From the IMG/VR virus record IMGVR_UViG_3300037071_000378, positions 1 through 21,434 of that record: a stretch of DNA of 21,434 bases; one strand, given 5' to 3'. Source of the DNA: a virus. Below the pieces are notes generated by a model. The model saw only the letters and a list, made by a program, of their open reading frames with translations. It had not been told where the DNA came from and searched no databases. Below, one piece after another: positions 13,159 to 20,151 of the stretch; positions within the stretch are counted from its first letter, which is position 1; each line of letters opens with the position of its first letter. Position numbers and translations under genes: made by a program.

Positions 13159-13703
13159 AAACGTGGCTTCCAATATTGCGAAACCACGTCGAGCATCCAT
13201 CCCGGCGTCTGTGCCTCGCTGCCGGCTACCAGTATTTCGCGATGTTCATACAGATGCGCGGTATAGCGCAGCACGATGTCTGATATCCCCGGATCGAGCG
13301 CGGCGGCAGAAGCGGTGCCGCTTGGGATCGTGATCGTCAGCCCAGCTGCATAGGAACCCACCAGCGTATTGATCTCGACACCGTGTACGGTCTCGGTCCC
13401 GATTTCATAGGCGCTGGTAACATCGTCGCCCTCGATCGCGGCGGTCCAGCTATTGACCGGCGACACCGGCACCGGCGCGCAGCCATAGTACGGCGAGAAT
13501 TCTTTTTGTGCCGGCTTCCACAGATAGGTGACCGGATTAACCGACACGCCGGTGACGCGCTCAAACCACGCAATCGCCCGCGCGATCGTGGTAGATATGG
13601 CGTGATCGTCCCAGGTGCCATCTACCCGCAGATGTGACTTGGCGGCCGATAACAGCCCGGCCGGCAACACCACCAGATCGAGCCCGGTCTTTCGGATGGT
13701 CAC
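13155..13703 (-). CDS. Head-tail connector protein (HK97 gp6-like)
   Basis: The 182-residue product starts at ATG 13703 with an ATGA overlap with the gene before it. The helical N-terminal half (AKSHLRVDGTWDDHAISTTIARAIAWFERVTG) is characteristic of the phage gp6-like connector family, where residues such as HLR and DD recur. After a beta-rich middle, the C-terminus returns to helix with AHLYEHRE, the usual family ending, followed by an aromatic tail (VVSQYWKPRL). Such proteins form a ring below the portal that joins head and tail. It ends in a GTGA overlap with the next gene. Confidence 0.88.
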   Translation of the reverse strand: MTIRKTGLDLVVLPAGLLSAAKSHLRVDGTWDDHAISTTIARAIAWFERVTGVSVNPVTYLWKPAQKEFSPYYGCAPVPVSPVNSWTAAIEGDDVTSAYEIGTETVHGVEINTLVGSYAAGLTITIPSGTASAAALDPGISDIVLRYTAHLYEHREILVAGSEAQTPGWMLDVVSQYWKPRL

Positions 13704-14386
13704 GCCGCCGCCTCCAACATGAATTCTTTACGCACGCCATCGGTCAGCACGAATACCAAGACGCCGTTGTCGATCAGGATATCGGCGATGCCACGGCCGG
13801 CCGGCCCAGCCACGCCTGGCAATCCCCGCTCGCCGCGGTCGCCCTTGATGCTCTCGCCCGGTATGCCTTTGTCGCCCTTGACGCCCTTCGCGCTCAACAT
13901 CCAGCCGTCACCCGGCAACGGGCCCGGATCATCCACGATCGCGCGCCATTCCGAACCGTTGTGCGCCACCACATCCATCGCGCGGTATTGCATCTCGGCA
14001 TTCCAGCGCCCGAGCGCGCGGCCGGTATAGGCGGCCTCGCCGCGTTCTCCGCGATCCCCAGGCGGTCCGGCGGGTCCGGCTTCCCCTGGTAGCCCTGGCG
14101 GCCCCGGCTCGCCCTGCGGCCCCGGCTGGCCGCCCTGGCCGGGCTCTCCGGATAGCCCTGGCGCGCCGTCCTTGCCGTCGATGCCGTCGCGGCCCGCTGC
14201 GCCGTCTAATCCGCGCTCGCCGGCCGGTCCCGGCTGCCGGATGACATTGCCATATTCATCAATCAATTCCTTGAGCCGCACCAGTTCGGCGGTCACCTCG
14301 CCCAGCGCCGCCGCGCGGTTCTTTTCTTCGCCAACGATGATTTCCGCGACAGCGCGCAGCAAAGCGCGATCAGGCAGCACGGACAT
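13700..14386 (-). CDS. Collagen-like phage protein with carbohydrate-binding-like insert
   Basis: I place the start at ATG 14386 (MSVLPDRALLRAV), 17 bases inside the end of the portal gene; the upstream extension is Arg-rich shadow. Of 228 residues, 1-50 form a charged helix that may trimerise. Gly occurs at every third residue from 53 to 116 (22 Gly-X-Y triplets). Residues about 120-165 look like a CBM5/12 (chitin-binding type 3) module: W128, Y134, D138-VV, G144-S-E-W147 and PGDGW at 158-162. A second, interrupted collagen run spans 168-199 and a short beta domain ends the protein. Collagen-like proteins are common in phage fibres, but this one is encoded between portal and connector, so a head or neck fibre binding host glycans is one possibility. 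Confidence 0.85.
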   Translation of the reverse strand: MSVLPDRALLRAVAEIIVGEEKNRAAALGEVTAELVRLKELIDEYGNVIRQPGPAGERGLDGAAGRDGIDGKDGAPGLSGEPGQGGQPGPQGEPGPPGLPGEAGPAGPPGDRGERGEAAYTGRALGRWNAEMQYRAMDVVAHNGSEWRAIVDDPGPLPGDGWMLSAKGVKGDKGIPGESIKGDRGERGLPGVAGPAGRGIADILIDNGVLVFVLTDGVRKEFMLEAAA

Positions 14387-15806
14387 GATCGATCTCGCTC
14401 TTGAGGTGATATAGCGCCAGCGCGGTCTGCTCGCCGTCGGTGAGGCCCGGATCATCCGGCTGGGTCTGGTCGGCCGCCGGTGCCGCTGGCGCTGATGGTG
14501 CCGACGGGGCGACCGGCTGCTTATCCCAGGCCGACAGCGGCACGACTTGCGCCTGCAAGCGCGGCTCATCGCCCTCGGTCGCCTTGGCGTAGCCTTCGAG
14601 CGCCCGCGCCTCGTTCGGCGAATAGATGCCGCCAAGCACGCCTTTGGCGAGGCCATCAATCCGGTCCTTGAACGCACTACGCAACAATGCCCGCGTATCG
14701 TATTCGGTGTATTCCCGGCCGCGTCCGATCGAGTTGGCGTTAAGCCCGACGAAGGCGTCCAACGCCGTCTCAATGTGATTGATCAGCCAGCCCAACCCGG
14801 CCGCCAGCCATTCCGCCATCACCGCCTCGGCCGATTTCTGCGTCCCGGTATCGGATACCCCGAGCAGGATCGCCGGCACCCCGAACACCGCCGCGACCAT
14901 CTTGTCGTTCATCTTGCGCTGTTCGATTACCTGTTGATCTTCCGCGCTCATGGTCAATGGCTGGAACTTGAGGCCATGGGTCAAAATCGGCACGCCGCCA
15001 CCCGCCAGGTTTTGCGACGTTCTTTCCCAGCGCGCCTTGAGGTCGTTGACCGCCGCCTCGGTCATGTTCATGTCGGTGTAGATCAATCCCGCCGGCCGCA
15101 TGTTAGAGGCCGACTGCGTGAGAGAGGCATTGATCGCGGCGTTCTGGCCCTGCTCGACCGCCAGCGCTTGCAGCCAGGTCTCACCGATTAACGGATGCCT
15201 GGGGCAAGCCAATTTCACGTGAAACACATCTCTGGCCGGGATCACCAGCCGGCTTTGGCCCAGCAGCGAGTTGAATTCCAGCAACGGGTTTTGCCCGATC
15301 GAGTAGAAGATTTCAGAGAATGCCTGGCCCTGCACCCGGTACTCTTCGACCCGGCAGGCGCGCGGGTCGGTCCAATGCAGCGCCGTCACCTCGGCGCGAT
15401 CGTTGCGCTGTGCAATCCAATAGGAATTTCCGGTCAGCAATAGTGACCGGATCAGATGCACCAGAAAGTCTGATGGCGTCTGGTATGGGTTGGGCGCCCG
15501 TAGCAACCGCGCCAGTGCCGACGTTGTAATGTTCTCGGTGCCGCCGGTATCCAACTCTAACCGATGATAGCCCGGCAATTGCGCAATCGCGCGGATATAG
15601 GCCCAGACGCATGCCTCGACGATCGAGCTCGAGGGATAGCCGCACGGATCAATATCGCACTGCCAGAAATTCCACGGTGAACCGGCCGGGATCATGCCAC
15701 CGGCCACGGTATACGGCCCGGCGTGCCAATTGCCCTCGCCGGCCGGGTTGGCCTTCTGGCGCGGCGTGATCAGCCGCGCCAGCGATTGCATCAGGGCGTT
15801 GGCCAT
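14370..15806 (-). CDS. Portal protein, HK97 family
   Basis: This encodes the dodecameric portal at the capsid vertex through which DNA is packaged and ejected. The frame is open for 60 codons farther upstream, but those residues look like out-of-frame coding. ATG 15806 (MANALMQSLARL) overlaps the preceding stop by one base and gives 478 residues, a normal size for this family. Family signals are a conserved early segment (VWAYIRAIAQLPGY), the LLLTGNSYW motif, ARDVFHVK, the central KFQPLTMSAEDQQVIEQR region, FGVPAILLGV, and the closing NEARALEGYAKATEGDEP. The C-terminus carries an Ala/Pro/Ser-rich linker and a final helix. It lies downstream of the capsid gene, which is not the usual order. 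Confidence 0.93.
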   Translation of the reverse strand: MANALMQSLARLITPRQKANPAGEGNWHAGPYTVAGGMIPAGSPWNFWQCDIDPCGYPSSSIVEACVWAYIRAIAQLPGYHRLELDTGGTENITTSALARLLRAPNPYQTPSDFLVHLIRSLLLTGNSYWIAQRNDRAEVTALHWTDPRACRVEEYRVQGQAFSEIFYSIGQNPLLEFNSLLGQSRLVIPARDVFHVKLACPRHPLIGETWLQALAVEQGQNAAINASLTQSASNMRPAGLIYTDMNMTEAAVNDLKARWERTSQNLAGGGVPILTHGLKFQPLTMSAEDQQVIEQRKMNDKMVAAVFGVPAILLGVSDTGTQKSAEAVMAEWLAAGLGWLINHIETALDAFVGLNANSIGRGREYTEYDTRALLRSAFKDRIDGLAKGVLGGIYSPNEARALEGYAKATEGDEPRLQAQVVPLSAWDKQPVAPSAPSAPAAPAADQTQPDDPGLTDGEQTALALYHLKSEIDHVRAA

Positions 15807-16364: not shown

Positions 16365-18368
16365 TCACCAGGAGACGCTCGCAATCGTCTGCACCATACC
16401 AGTACGGCGCATCACCCACGCGAGGTAGAGCGACATGCGGATGGCTACCGCGTCGGTCTGGAACAGCGAGCGCATCGGCGCCGCTACCACGTTCGGCGAA
16501 CCGGTAGTGCCCAATGCCAGCGGCGTCGTATCTTCCTCATGCAGCGTCGCATCGGTCGATACCGCAAACCGCGGCGCGTCGCCTTGGGCGGTAGCAAAAT
16601 CCGCCGCGTCGACCGCGATCACCCTCCCCGCCGGACAAGTCGCCGAGACGATCACCCGGCTGTTGAACTTTGCCGCCGCCGCCTGCGCGCTATCAAACAG
16701 GAAATCGCCGGTTGTGGTCTGCACCACGCCCATGGAAATCGCCTGCGCCGGGTTGACGATCAGCACGATATTACGACCGCCACCGGCGGCAATGATCGCC
16801 GCCACCAGCGCCTTGAGGTCGGCCACCATCGCAGCACTTGCCGGCGTCAGCACCGAGGCCGTAATCGGCGTCACACCATTCAGCAACCCGGCCGGACGGA
16901 CGCCGGCCGAGGCCGCCACCGCGTCGATCAGGTAGGTATCGAGCGCAATCGAGGTGTCGTCGCTCATCGCCTGGCGAATGATCTGCTCAATCGATTGGGC
17001 GCTATAGGTGGCCATTTCTTCCGTAAATGTCGAGATGACCGAAAGCTTGGTTGGCGAGAGACTTACCGTGGTGAAGCTGGCCCTGCGAACCGGCTTGGGC
17101 GCCCCTTCCGCAACCCAGTTGCCGGCCAGCGTCGGGGTTGCCGCGCGCACCGGGATTTTCAACACACCCGCATTGCCGAATGTGTACTTCACGCCGGCGG
17201 CTGCCAGCGGCAGATAGATGCTGTCGGGGATCAGCCGATCGAGGAACGGCTGAGTATCGGTCTGGATTAATTCCGCGGCCCAGGTCGCCACCGTGGTATT
17301 CGCGGGATTGACCGCGGCGCGTAGCACCTGCTGGGTAAGTTCGCTGTGAGTGCCGCCGGTGTACATACCGCGCAGCGTCTGGCCGAGGTCTTGATCGTGC
17401 GACGCCTGCGCTTTGGCCCAGGCCGCGATGGCCCGGAATTGGTGATCCGAATAGGTCAGATGCTTGCGCGGCGCGGCCGGCAGCGTCACCCGTTCCGGCA
17501 TCGGCTCGGTTCTGGCCGGCTGCGGCGCCAAAATCTGGCCATCGAGGGCCGGCGCCGGCTTGGTCGCGACCGTGCGGGTTTCGCTACTGCCAATCAAGTC
17601 GCGCTCGGCCTGCTGCTCGCTTTCGAGCACGATCCGCGCGGCCTTGAGTTGCACCGGCAGTTCGTCGCGGTAGCGTTTGGTTTCTTCCTCGGTGAGGTCG
17701 AGCTTGCCGGCGAGTTCCTCGTAGGAAGCCCGGATAGCGTTGACGTTCTGTTGTGCGTTCTGGATTTTCGTGGCGATGGTTTCTGCGATGGACATGGTCG
17801 AACCCCTTGAGGGATCGAGAGCGGGAGCGGCAGGCTTGCCATGAAACGCACGGTCGATTGCGGGCTGTTCGGTTGCAGGCTTGCGGAACACCTCGGCAAT
17901 CACTTCGCGCGGATAGTCCTTGGCGATTGCCAAGGCATTCGGGTTTGCCGGCACACTGACCAGCGAACATTCCAACAGGTCACTTTTCTTGAAGCGGAAC
18001 GGCCCGAAATTCTTATCGGCGTCCTTGGTCAGCGGCTCGGTTTCCAGCGGCCGGAAACCAACCGACACCGCGCGCAATATCTTTTGCGCGTGCAACGCGC
18101 GGATGTAATCGACAAAGGGTGACGTTCCCGCCTCGGCTAGTTCCAGGTCGCCGAGCAGTTGATCGCCCTTGATCTGGACGTTCGCCCATTTGCCGATCAC
18201 CTGATCCTTGTCATGGTTGAACAGCGCGATCGGATGGTTCTTGAAATGGGCGAGCTGCCAGCCCTTGGCATCGACCACGTCGCCCATCCGGTCAATCGAG
18301 TTATCGGACATGACAAAGCGGTTCGGCTCACCGCCGGGCGGCGGTGCCGATTTGACGGCATAACGCAT
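16365..18368 (-). CDS. HK97-family prohead protease fused to major capsid protein
   Basis: This single 667-residue frame carries two head functions. Residues 1 to about 165 are an HK97-type prohead serine protease: the probable catalytic His is H45 in FKNHPIALFNHD, the probable catalytic Ser is S102 in LRAVSVGF, and a LECSLVSVPANPNA motif follows at about 131-145. Residues 192 to about 265 are a charged coiled coil like the delta (scaffold) domain of HK97-fold capsids. Residues from about 300 to 667 are the capsid itself, with the N-arm region near 370-430 and typical A-domain segments (ALDTYLIDAVAASAGVRPAGLLNG at about 475-498, and LIVNPAQA). The start ATG 18368 is preceded by AAGGAA. An internal ATG at 17795 has a good ribosome binding site (separate entry), so a free capsid form is likely too. 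The protease would cleave the delta domain during maturation. Confidence 0.92.
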   Translation of the reverse strand: MRYAVKSAPPPGGEPNRFVMSDNSIDRMGDVVDAKGWQLAHFKNHPIALFNHDKDQVIGKWANVQIKGDQLLGDLELAEAGTSPFVDYIRALHAQKILRAVSVGFRPLETEPLTKDADKNFGPFRFKKSDLLECSLVSVPANPNALAIAKDYPREVIAEVFRKPATEQPAIDRAFHGKPAAPALDPSRGSTMSIAETIATKIQNAQQNVNAIRASYEELAGKLDLTEEETKRYRDELPVQLKAARIVLESEQQAERDLIGSSETRTVATKPAPALDGQILAPQPARTEPMPERVTLPAAPRKHLTYSDHQFRAIAAWAKAQASHDQDLGQTLRGMYTGGTHSELTQQVLRAAVNPANTTVATWAAELIQTDTQPFLDRLIPDSIYLPLAAAGVKYTFGNAGVLKIPVRAATPTLAGNWVAEGAPKPVRRASFTTVSLSPTKLSVISTFTEEMATYSAQSIEQIIRQAMSDDTSIALDTYLIDAVAASAGVRPAGLLNGVTPITASVLTPASAAMVADLKALVAAIIAAGGGRNIVLIVNPAQAISMGVVQTTTGDFLFDSAQAAAAKFNSRVIVSATCPAGRVIAVDAADFATAQGDAPRFAVSTDATLHEEDTTPLALGTTGSPNVVAAPMRSLFQTDAVAIRMSLYLAWVMRRTGMVQTIASVSW
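17793..17808 (-). promoter_or_regulatory. Internal ribosome binding site and start for a separate capsid product
   Basis: On the minus strand AAGGGG (17808-17803) is followed by seven bases and ATG (17795-17793), in frame at residue 192 of the fusion. This spacing is close to ideal. Initiation here would yield a 476-residue protein beginning MSIAETIATK, exactly where the delta-domain coiled coil starts, so the capsid could be made in excess over the full-length protease-capsid polyprotein. This parallels nested head genes such as lambda C/Nu3. The site is seen in the sequence; its use is inferred. Confidence 0.55.
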
Positions 18369-18384
18369 AATGATTTTCCTTCGA

Positions 18385-18735: not shown

Positions 18736-20151
18736 TCACGGTCGATATTGCGCAATGAACCCCGGCGCCTTGCCGTCATCGCTTTGCTGCGCGACCAGGC
18801 CCGGCACCGGCGATTGCTGCGCCACCAGGCCCTTGATCTGGTTGACCTTGGCGCTTGAAAAGTGCGCGGTGTCGGCGGTTTCCGTTGCCGCCAGAATGCC
18901 GATCACGGCGCCAACGCCGGCGAACGCTGCGGTATCCTTGGCCTCGGTCGCGGCTAAGGTGCCGGTGATGACGTCAAAGATCGCGCCGGTAAAGACGGCG
19001 GTGTCCTTGGCTTCCGTTGCGGCCAGCGTTCCGGCCACGCCGGTGACCGCGCCGGCAAAGGCCGCGTTGTCCGCGGTCTCAACCGCCGCCAGATTGGCGT
19101 TGATGCCGGCGCCGATGATGCCGCCAACAAACGCCGCAGTGTCGGCGGTCTCGCTTGCCGCTAAGGTGCCGGTCGCAATAATCGCCGCGTTGAAGGCGGC
19201 GGTGTCTTTGGCTTCCGTTGCGGCTAAGGTACCGGTTGCAACGATCGCCGCATTGAAGGCCGCCGCATCAGCGGTTTCCGTTGCCGCCAGCGTGCCGACC
19301 AGACCAGCGTCGCCAACGAATGCCGCGCCGTCAGCGGTTTCAACAGCGGCAAAAGTGCCGGTGACATCGGCCGGCGCACCCGACGAAACCAGATAGACGC
19401 GCTTGCTAGTCGGATACCAGAACGACCACGGGTCCTCGGCCCAGCGCAGCAGTTGTTGCCGCGTCAGGAATGACGGTGCGAACATTGCGGCGGCTATGTA
19501 TCCGTGGAGGCTCTGAAAACCTGACGGCGTATTGCCGACCATATAAGTGCCGTCAGATGCAGCGGCCGGTCCGGTCGATACCTGTGTGGTGGCTGTTGTG
19601 GTGATAGCGCCGGTCAGTAAATTCTTGATCGCCGAATGAAAGATGTAATTTGCGCCGCTCTGGATCGCGCTAGCGGCGATGAAATACGGCGTGTTGGCCG
19701 CATAAGCGAGGCCCGGCGTACCCAAGGTACTGCCGCCGCCGTTGAAAGTAAAACTGATTTGGCTGCTGCTGCTATGTCCGAAATAGAACCCCTTTCCCGT
19801 TGTCCCGGTATTGCTTAATAGATAAAAATTACCGCCTATCGAGGTATGCTGAACAATCCCGGCAACCGTGAACGCCGTATCGTTCGCGGCAAGATTTCCG
19901 GCAAACGTCGCCGACTTATTGCCACTGTCACATAGCAGCCCCGGCCCGATAGCTCCAATGATGCCGGATGTTGGCGAGGTATTGAGCGTGCCCCGCGCGC
20001 CGTTAACGAGGTTAGCAAATCCGTTATTGGACGCGACACCGGCAAACCCGTGACCGGATACGATGCCCTGCGCCGCCGGATGTGTCGGGTCAAACCCCGG
20101 CGTCGCACCCGCTGGATAGATGAGCTTGTTGCGAACCGGGATCAGGGGCAT
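18736..20151 (-). CDS. Probable virion surface protein: beta-sandwich-like N-domain plus Ala-rich tandem repeats
   Basis: This is a 471-residue protein starting at ATG 20151. Residues 1 to about 255 look like a concanavalin/LamG-type beta domain, with many short Gly/Ser/Thr strands. The boundary segment around residues 235-255 (LLRWAEDPWSFWYPTSKRVY) resembles one seen at the end of such domains in phage proteins. Residues 264-435 hold about eight imperfect repeats of 20-24 residues, each carrying E-T/A-x-D-x-A-x-F after a GTLAA-like lead. The C-terminus has two GLVAQQS units and a related GFIAQYR. The N-terminal half may bind a glycan while the repeats form a stalk; that is inference. It sits two genes upstream of the protease-capsid gene, so a head-fibre role is as possible as a tail-fibre role. 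Confidence 0.75.
   Translation of the reverse strand: MPLIPVRNKLIYPAGATPGFDPTHPAAQGIVSGHGFAGVASNNGFANLVNGARGTLNTSPTSGIIGAIGPGLLCDSGNKSATFAGNLAANDTAFTVAGIVQHTSIGGNFYLLSNTGTTGKGFYFGHSSSSQISFTFNGGGSTLGTPGLAYAANTPYFIAASAIQSGANYIFHSAIKNLLTGAITTTATTQVSTGPAAASDGTYMVGNTPSGFQSLHGYIAAAMFAPSFLTRQQLLRWAEDPWSFWYPTSKRVYLVSSGAPADVTGTFAAVETADGAAFVGDAGLVGTLAATETADAAAFNAAIVATGTLAATEAKDTAAFNAAIIATGTLAASETADTAAFVGGIIGAGINANLAAVETADNAAFAGAVTGVAGTLAATEAKDTAVFTGAIFDVITGTLAATEAKDTAAFAGVGAVIGILAATETADTAHFSSAKVNQIKGLVAQQSPVPGLVAQQSDDGKAPGFIAQYRP
18847..19362 (-). repeat. Imperfect tandem repeat, about eight units of 60-72 bp inside the 471-aa protein gene
   Basis: The repeats encode residues 264-435. Each unit has the form (G)TLAATE-x-x-D-x-A-x-F followed by a variable linker of 6-12 residues. 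GAAACGGAAGCC-like and GTGTCC/GGTATC-like segments recur at the DNA level, but synonymous differences are frequent, so units have diverged at the third codon position. The opposite strand also stays open across much of the array because of the Ala-rich coding; I treat that frame as a shadow. Confidence 0.75.

Follow-up and report, generated by a model that had tools for sequence, protein, structure and literature searches.

Predicted nested capsid start in a prohead protease–major capsid protein fusion, with an RNA hairpin at this site in one clade

In phage lambda the scaffold gene Nu3 is nested inside the protease–scaffold gene C and is read from an in-frame internal start, C being an S49-type protease and Nu3 the scaffold. 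The capsid gene of Gifsy-2, reportedly described by Effantin in 2010 as tripartite, also joins a protease to a capsid protein. Fused protease–capsid genes are already known from the annotation of ORF003 of Pseudomonas phage PAJU2 and its relatives as 'prohead protease fused capsid protein', and from Arthrobacter cluster AN and other actinophages (PMC5513430). In the literature searched, which covered few subscription papers, no report was found that fusions of an S78 protease with a capsid protein contain a conserved nested start for the capsid, or that a hairpin occurs at such a site.

The window analysed here, a stretch of 21,434 nucleotides from the IMG/VR virus record IMGVR_UViG_3300037071_000378, carries such a fusion. 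As in C/Nu3, the gene of a head protease contains a second start in the same frame, and the long predicted product would contain the protease while the short one would be its assembly partner. The initial annotation, which had called the arrangement lambda C/Nu3-like, was right about the logic, since comparison of homologues points to a conserved internal start with a ribosome-binding site, as in a nested gene of that kind. Unlike in lambda, the partner is an HK97-type capsid protein with its own delta domain and the protease belongs to Peptidase_S78; with an S78 protease and a capsid protein as the short product, homology by descent to C/Nu3 is not indicated. The protease of Gifsy-2, N-terminal and Clp-type by annotation compared with S78 here, rules out both a direct relationship and a gene of the tripartite type, and no start matching the internal Met was seen at the junction of the Gifsy-2 gene. 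PAJU2 ORF003 and its relatives share the domain order, the internal ATG and its Shine–Dalgarno (SD) sequence; they differ in being 24–33% identical and in an annotation that makes no mention of an internal start. The actinophage genes share the fusion, whereas their capsid part is unrelated or very distant and the position of the site varies.

The fused gene occupies positions 18368 to 16365 on the minus strand as a single frame of 667 residues, in which, as initially annotated, an HK97-type protease is joined to the capsid protein. The Peptidase_S78 profile (PF04586) matched residues 22–147 (17928–18305; E 1.8e-9, 38.4 bits against a cut-off of 21), and the Phage_capsid profile (PF05065) matched residues 398–599 (16572–17177; E 1.3e-13, 51.4 bits against 24.2), while a match to PHROG 617 spanned residues 18–667. 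His52, Ser102 and Glu133, which we take to be catalytic from HK97 gp4, were invariant in 55 homologue rows, and together with the profile match they identify the first part, at the level of sequence, as a prohead protease. In the AlphaFold2 model (mean pLDDT 73) the protease was ordered, residues 140–195 were disordered, and the first helices of a predicted HK97-type delta domain covered residues 198–220 and 227–260 (198–260 at 17589–17777). The variable and disordered linker comprised residues 148–191 (17796–17927). The capsid part of the model gave Foldseek matches to the HK97, D3 and Bxb1 capsids, so that profile and fold agree on an HK97-fold major capsid protein. All full-length relatives fetched were fused in the same layout. 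A 167-aa ORF and then the portal gene (15986–14370) lie downstream.

The main start, ATG 18368, is preceded at 8 nt by AAGGA (18377–18381). A second in-frame ATG at 17795 (17793–17795, Met192; tcAAGGGGttcgaccATG) is preceded at exactly 7 nt by AAGGGG (17803–17808) and is the predicted start of a capsid-only product of 476 aa. The DNA and the model agree with its earlier placement at the start of the delta domain, since Met192 lies at the end of the disordered stretch, just before the helices that begin at residue 198. Relatives were gathered as 22 viral contigs, and then as 80 viral and 12 host-genome loci; a search of genome contigs with a single protein as the query gave no match, and the 12 loci, mainly from Ensifer, Bradyrhizobium and Sphingomonas, were obtained with an alignment as the query. 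Removal of duplicates left 95 genes covering the junction. Met192 was not listed as invariant in the MAFFT alignment A2, in which the gappy linker was misaligned, and a local-pair alignment was used instead. A Met was then found at the internal-start position in 93 of the 95 genes, in the same alignment column in 86 and within two residues of it in seven, which sustains the earlier expectation of two nested products as a prediction from sequence. One exception (L104) has GTG preceded by GAAAGG at this position, and the other (L109) has lost the capsid part. The Met is kept down to about 38% identity, although the linker around it varies and its immediate neighbours do so strongly. In one relative (L099:2-4483) an upstream region of a different kind, the protease and the capsid all lie in one stop-free open frame of 1494 codons, the true start of which is probably internal. 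In three others (L094:912-2036, L105:1093-2229 and L106:1062-2210) the fused gene is immediately preceded by a capsid-like frame of about 380 codons that lacks a protease and may be a minor capsid paralogue.

Lack of conservation among relatives, which the initial annotation had named as grounds for refutation, was not observed: the Met is kept, and so is a run of purines resembling an SD, with a purine peak at about -13 to -9 before the internal start, while AAGGGG-N7 as a literal string is not. The median SD energy at the internal start was -4.5 kcal/mol, compared with -1.8 at 1364 other in-frame Met codons. The mean, -4.44, was also below that of synonymous shuffles (-3.35 +/- 0.19, lowest shuffle -3.74). 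As the genes are related, the p of 3e-16 from the SD test overstates their independence, and the effect size and the shuffles weigh more. The SD match begins in all three codon phases (44/27/21), hence it does not reflect one protein motif. Retention of the Met despite a variable linker, together with an SD signal beyond that of other Met codons and of synonymous shuffles, argues that the site is not due to chance, and a nested capsid start in the fused gene is very likely on these comparisons.

Four distant annotated fusions (24–33% identity) have a matching internal ATG with AAGGA or AGGAGG, namely FSL SP-016 (Met190), RHph_X2_26 (Met200), PAJU2 (Met197) and JLK-2012 (Met193). The Moraxella phages Mcat1 and Mcat7 have a protease and a capsid protein homologous to those of the fusion, and their capsid ATG aligns with the internal Met found in the fusions. 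They differ in that the S78 protease and the capsid protein are separate genes divided by a stop codon, the protease stop and the capsid ATG overlapping as ATGA. By this alignment, one and the same site is internal in the fusions and opens the capsid gene where the two genes are separate. The genes are separate in Stenotrophomonas phage SOVA965 too, where the capsid start corresponds to Met197 of PAJU2; its capsid gene (L117:2467-3872) is annotated as two overlapping frames, by a frameshift or a sequence error, and because of the possible error the separate-gene argument rests on the Moraxella phages. In the very distant actinophage set, comprising only 11 genes that were inspected by eye with the help of an energy table, ten have an ATG or GTG accompanied by an SD-like sequence in the linker, at differing positions; the linker of the fusion in Gordonia phage Emperor has no internal SD–ATG.

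In the window, the four G residues of the internal SD are paired inside a predicted RNA hairpin (17798–17818, minus strand; UCGAUCCCUCAAGGGGUUCGA; UCGA-U-CCCU, loop CAA, GGGG-U-UCGA; -9.4 kcal/mol), which by itself is unremarkable against shuffles (z -1.9). Neither the hairpin nor the separate-gene relatives with the same capsid start figured in the initial annotation. The gene belongs to a clade of 59 genes (SH-aLRT support 99). Defining the hairpin by an SD core in the stem split this clade artificially, with 18 changes on the tree, and any stable hairpin with an MFE of -5 or lower was then counted. By this measure a hairpin is present within the 27 bases preceding the ATG in 47 of the 59 genes, compared with 4 of 39 outside the clade, and 27 different stems occur, the SD core lying in the stem in 38 of the 47 hairpins and in the loop in eight. 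Relative to synonymous shuffles, structure in the clade is strongest over codons -8 to -1, with a mean of -6.8 compared with -4.5 in the shuffles. When the hairpin arms were re-dealt among 39 non-redundant sequences, the real pairs gave -6.47 and the re-dealt ones -3.92 +/- 0.30 (0 of 5000), and a second run with 40 sequences gave 0 of 20,000. The arms thus co-vary strongly in the clade. The same arm-swap test was negative for the main start (p 0.63), and eleven further sites along the gene gave no signal as strong, their smallest p values, 0.01 and 0.02, coming with small effects. The start itself does not need the hairpin, since genes outside the clade and 12 of the 59 within it have no clear one. 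Outside the clade the region before the internal start is instead depleted of structure (mean -2.0 against -3.6 in synonymous shuffles; 34 cases, none significant), which is what one would expect where translation begins. Also outside the clade, PAJU2 has a small hairpin (L114:2398-2424, -7.9 kcal/mol) over its internal AGGAGG.

From these data we consider it probable that one gene yields two nested, co-assembling products and that, in the clade of the window, a hairpin couples the capsid start to translation of the protease. Ribosomes starting at 18368 would make the protease–capsid fusion, and those starting at ATG 17795 the 476-aa capsid protein alone, two nested products being what a fusion with a conserved internal start leads one to expect. 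Both proteins would co-assemble through the capsid domain, so that only some subunits of each prohead would carry a protease, on the inside; the protease would then cut the delta region and the linker and free itself. The internal start is the site at which the capsid gene begins in related phages with separate genes, and it is kept where the protease and capsid genes are fused. In the clade, ribosomes traversing the protease part would open the capsid start held in the hairpin, which would tie the capsid-only output to translation of the protease. Such translational coupling, as in the ATGA overlap of the Moraxella phages, appears the simplest and most likely reading.

The two start sites bear on the balance of the products. 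The capsid-only product had been expected to dominate; in 54 clade genes, however, the SD at the main start is equal or better (median -5.1 against -4.5 kcal/mol at the internal start) and has little structure around it (mean MFE -3.5 against -7.1), so that the internal start in the clade looks gated, not simply strong. In the window alone, SD pairing is better at the internal start (-7.6) than at the main one (-5.7). Little polyprotein and much free capsid may still be true, the ratio itself not being readable from sequence, and the covalent protease may plausibly be incorporated at a fixed ratio, as had been suggested. Gating by the hairpin would have to accommodate the eight hairpins with the SD core in the loop and the unremarkable hairpin of the window taken alone, which count against it; outside the clade, where the region is open, the internal start may fire freely.

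The hairpin could also act on a working internal start with no coupling, lowering capsid-only synthesis by a fixed amount or slowing ribosomes while the protease folds. Its strength and the location of the SD vary among relatives, and other members have no hairpin, which suits such a role; in the separate-gene relatives, on the other hand, the genes are joined through an ATGA overlap, an arrangement typical of coupling, and we regard an uncoupled hairpin as rather unlikely.

It is improbable that the fusion is the only product, with free capsid arising when the protease cuts the linker and the delta domain, and with Met192 and its purines reflecting some property of the protein, for example a site of cleavage. 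In HK97-type heads the protease does remove the N-terminus of the capsid protein, and the invariant triad and the disordered linker would suit cleavage here; residues 1–164 are removed from the capsid protein of phage 7-7-1 (PMC12796354). A cleavage site, however, would not predict an SD sequence, depleted structure or the GTG exception. Residues near the Met vary, yet the Met itself, or a GTG start in its place, persists; the SD is retained although its codon phase differs, and the Moraxella capsid genes begin exactly at the aligned site. Cleavage after assembly can occur as well as nested initiation. That the internal start is a disused fossil of a former capsid gene start agrees with its match to the start of the separate gene, but hardly seems credible when decay would be expected among homologues at 40% identity and the Met and SD are intact and the hairpin arms co-vary.

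A nested start bears on how the head acquires its protease. Some protease has to enter each prohead, though probably not a copy for every shell subunit, and a fusion gene seems to force a 1:1 ratio of protease to capsid; a conserved nested start would resolve this and predicts mixed proheads. Many genes annotated as a single 'capsid-protease fusion' product probably make two proteins. It is tempting to speculate that nesting is the rule among the protease–capsid fusion genes of tailed phages, which would keep the capsid start and have arisen repeatedly, and that the hairpin of one clade gates the capsid start through protease translation and so sets, at the level of RNA, how much protease each head receives; we give this wider proposal an even chance.

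Two other genes of the window may be mentioned. Between the portal and the head–tail connector lies a gene (13700–14773, minus strand) with collagen-like Gly-X-Y repeats (Pfam Collagen). The other, at 18736–20151 (minus strand) just upstream of the head genes, encodes a 471-aa protein of no known family, which contains 21-residue tandem repeats, e.g. GTLAATEAKDTAAFNAA, with a period of 63 bases.
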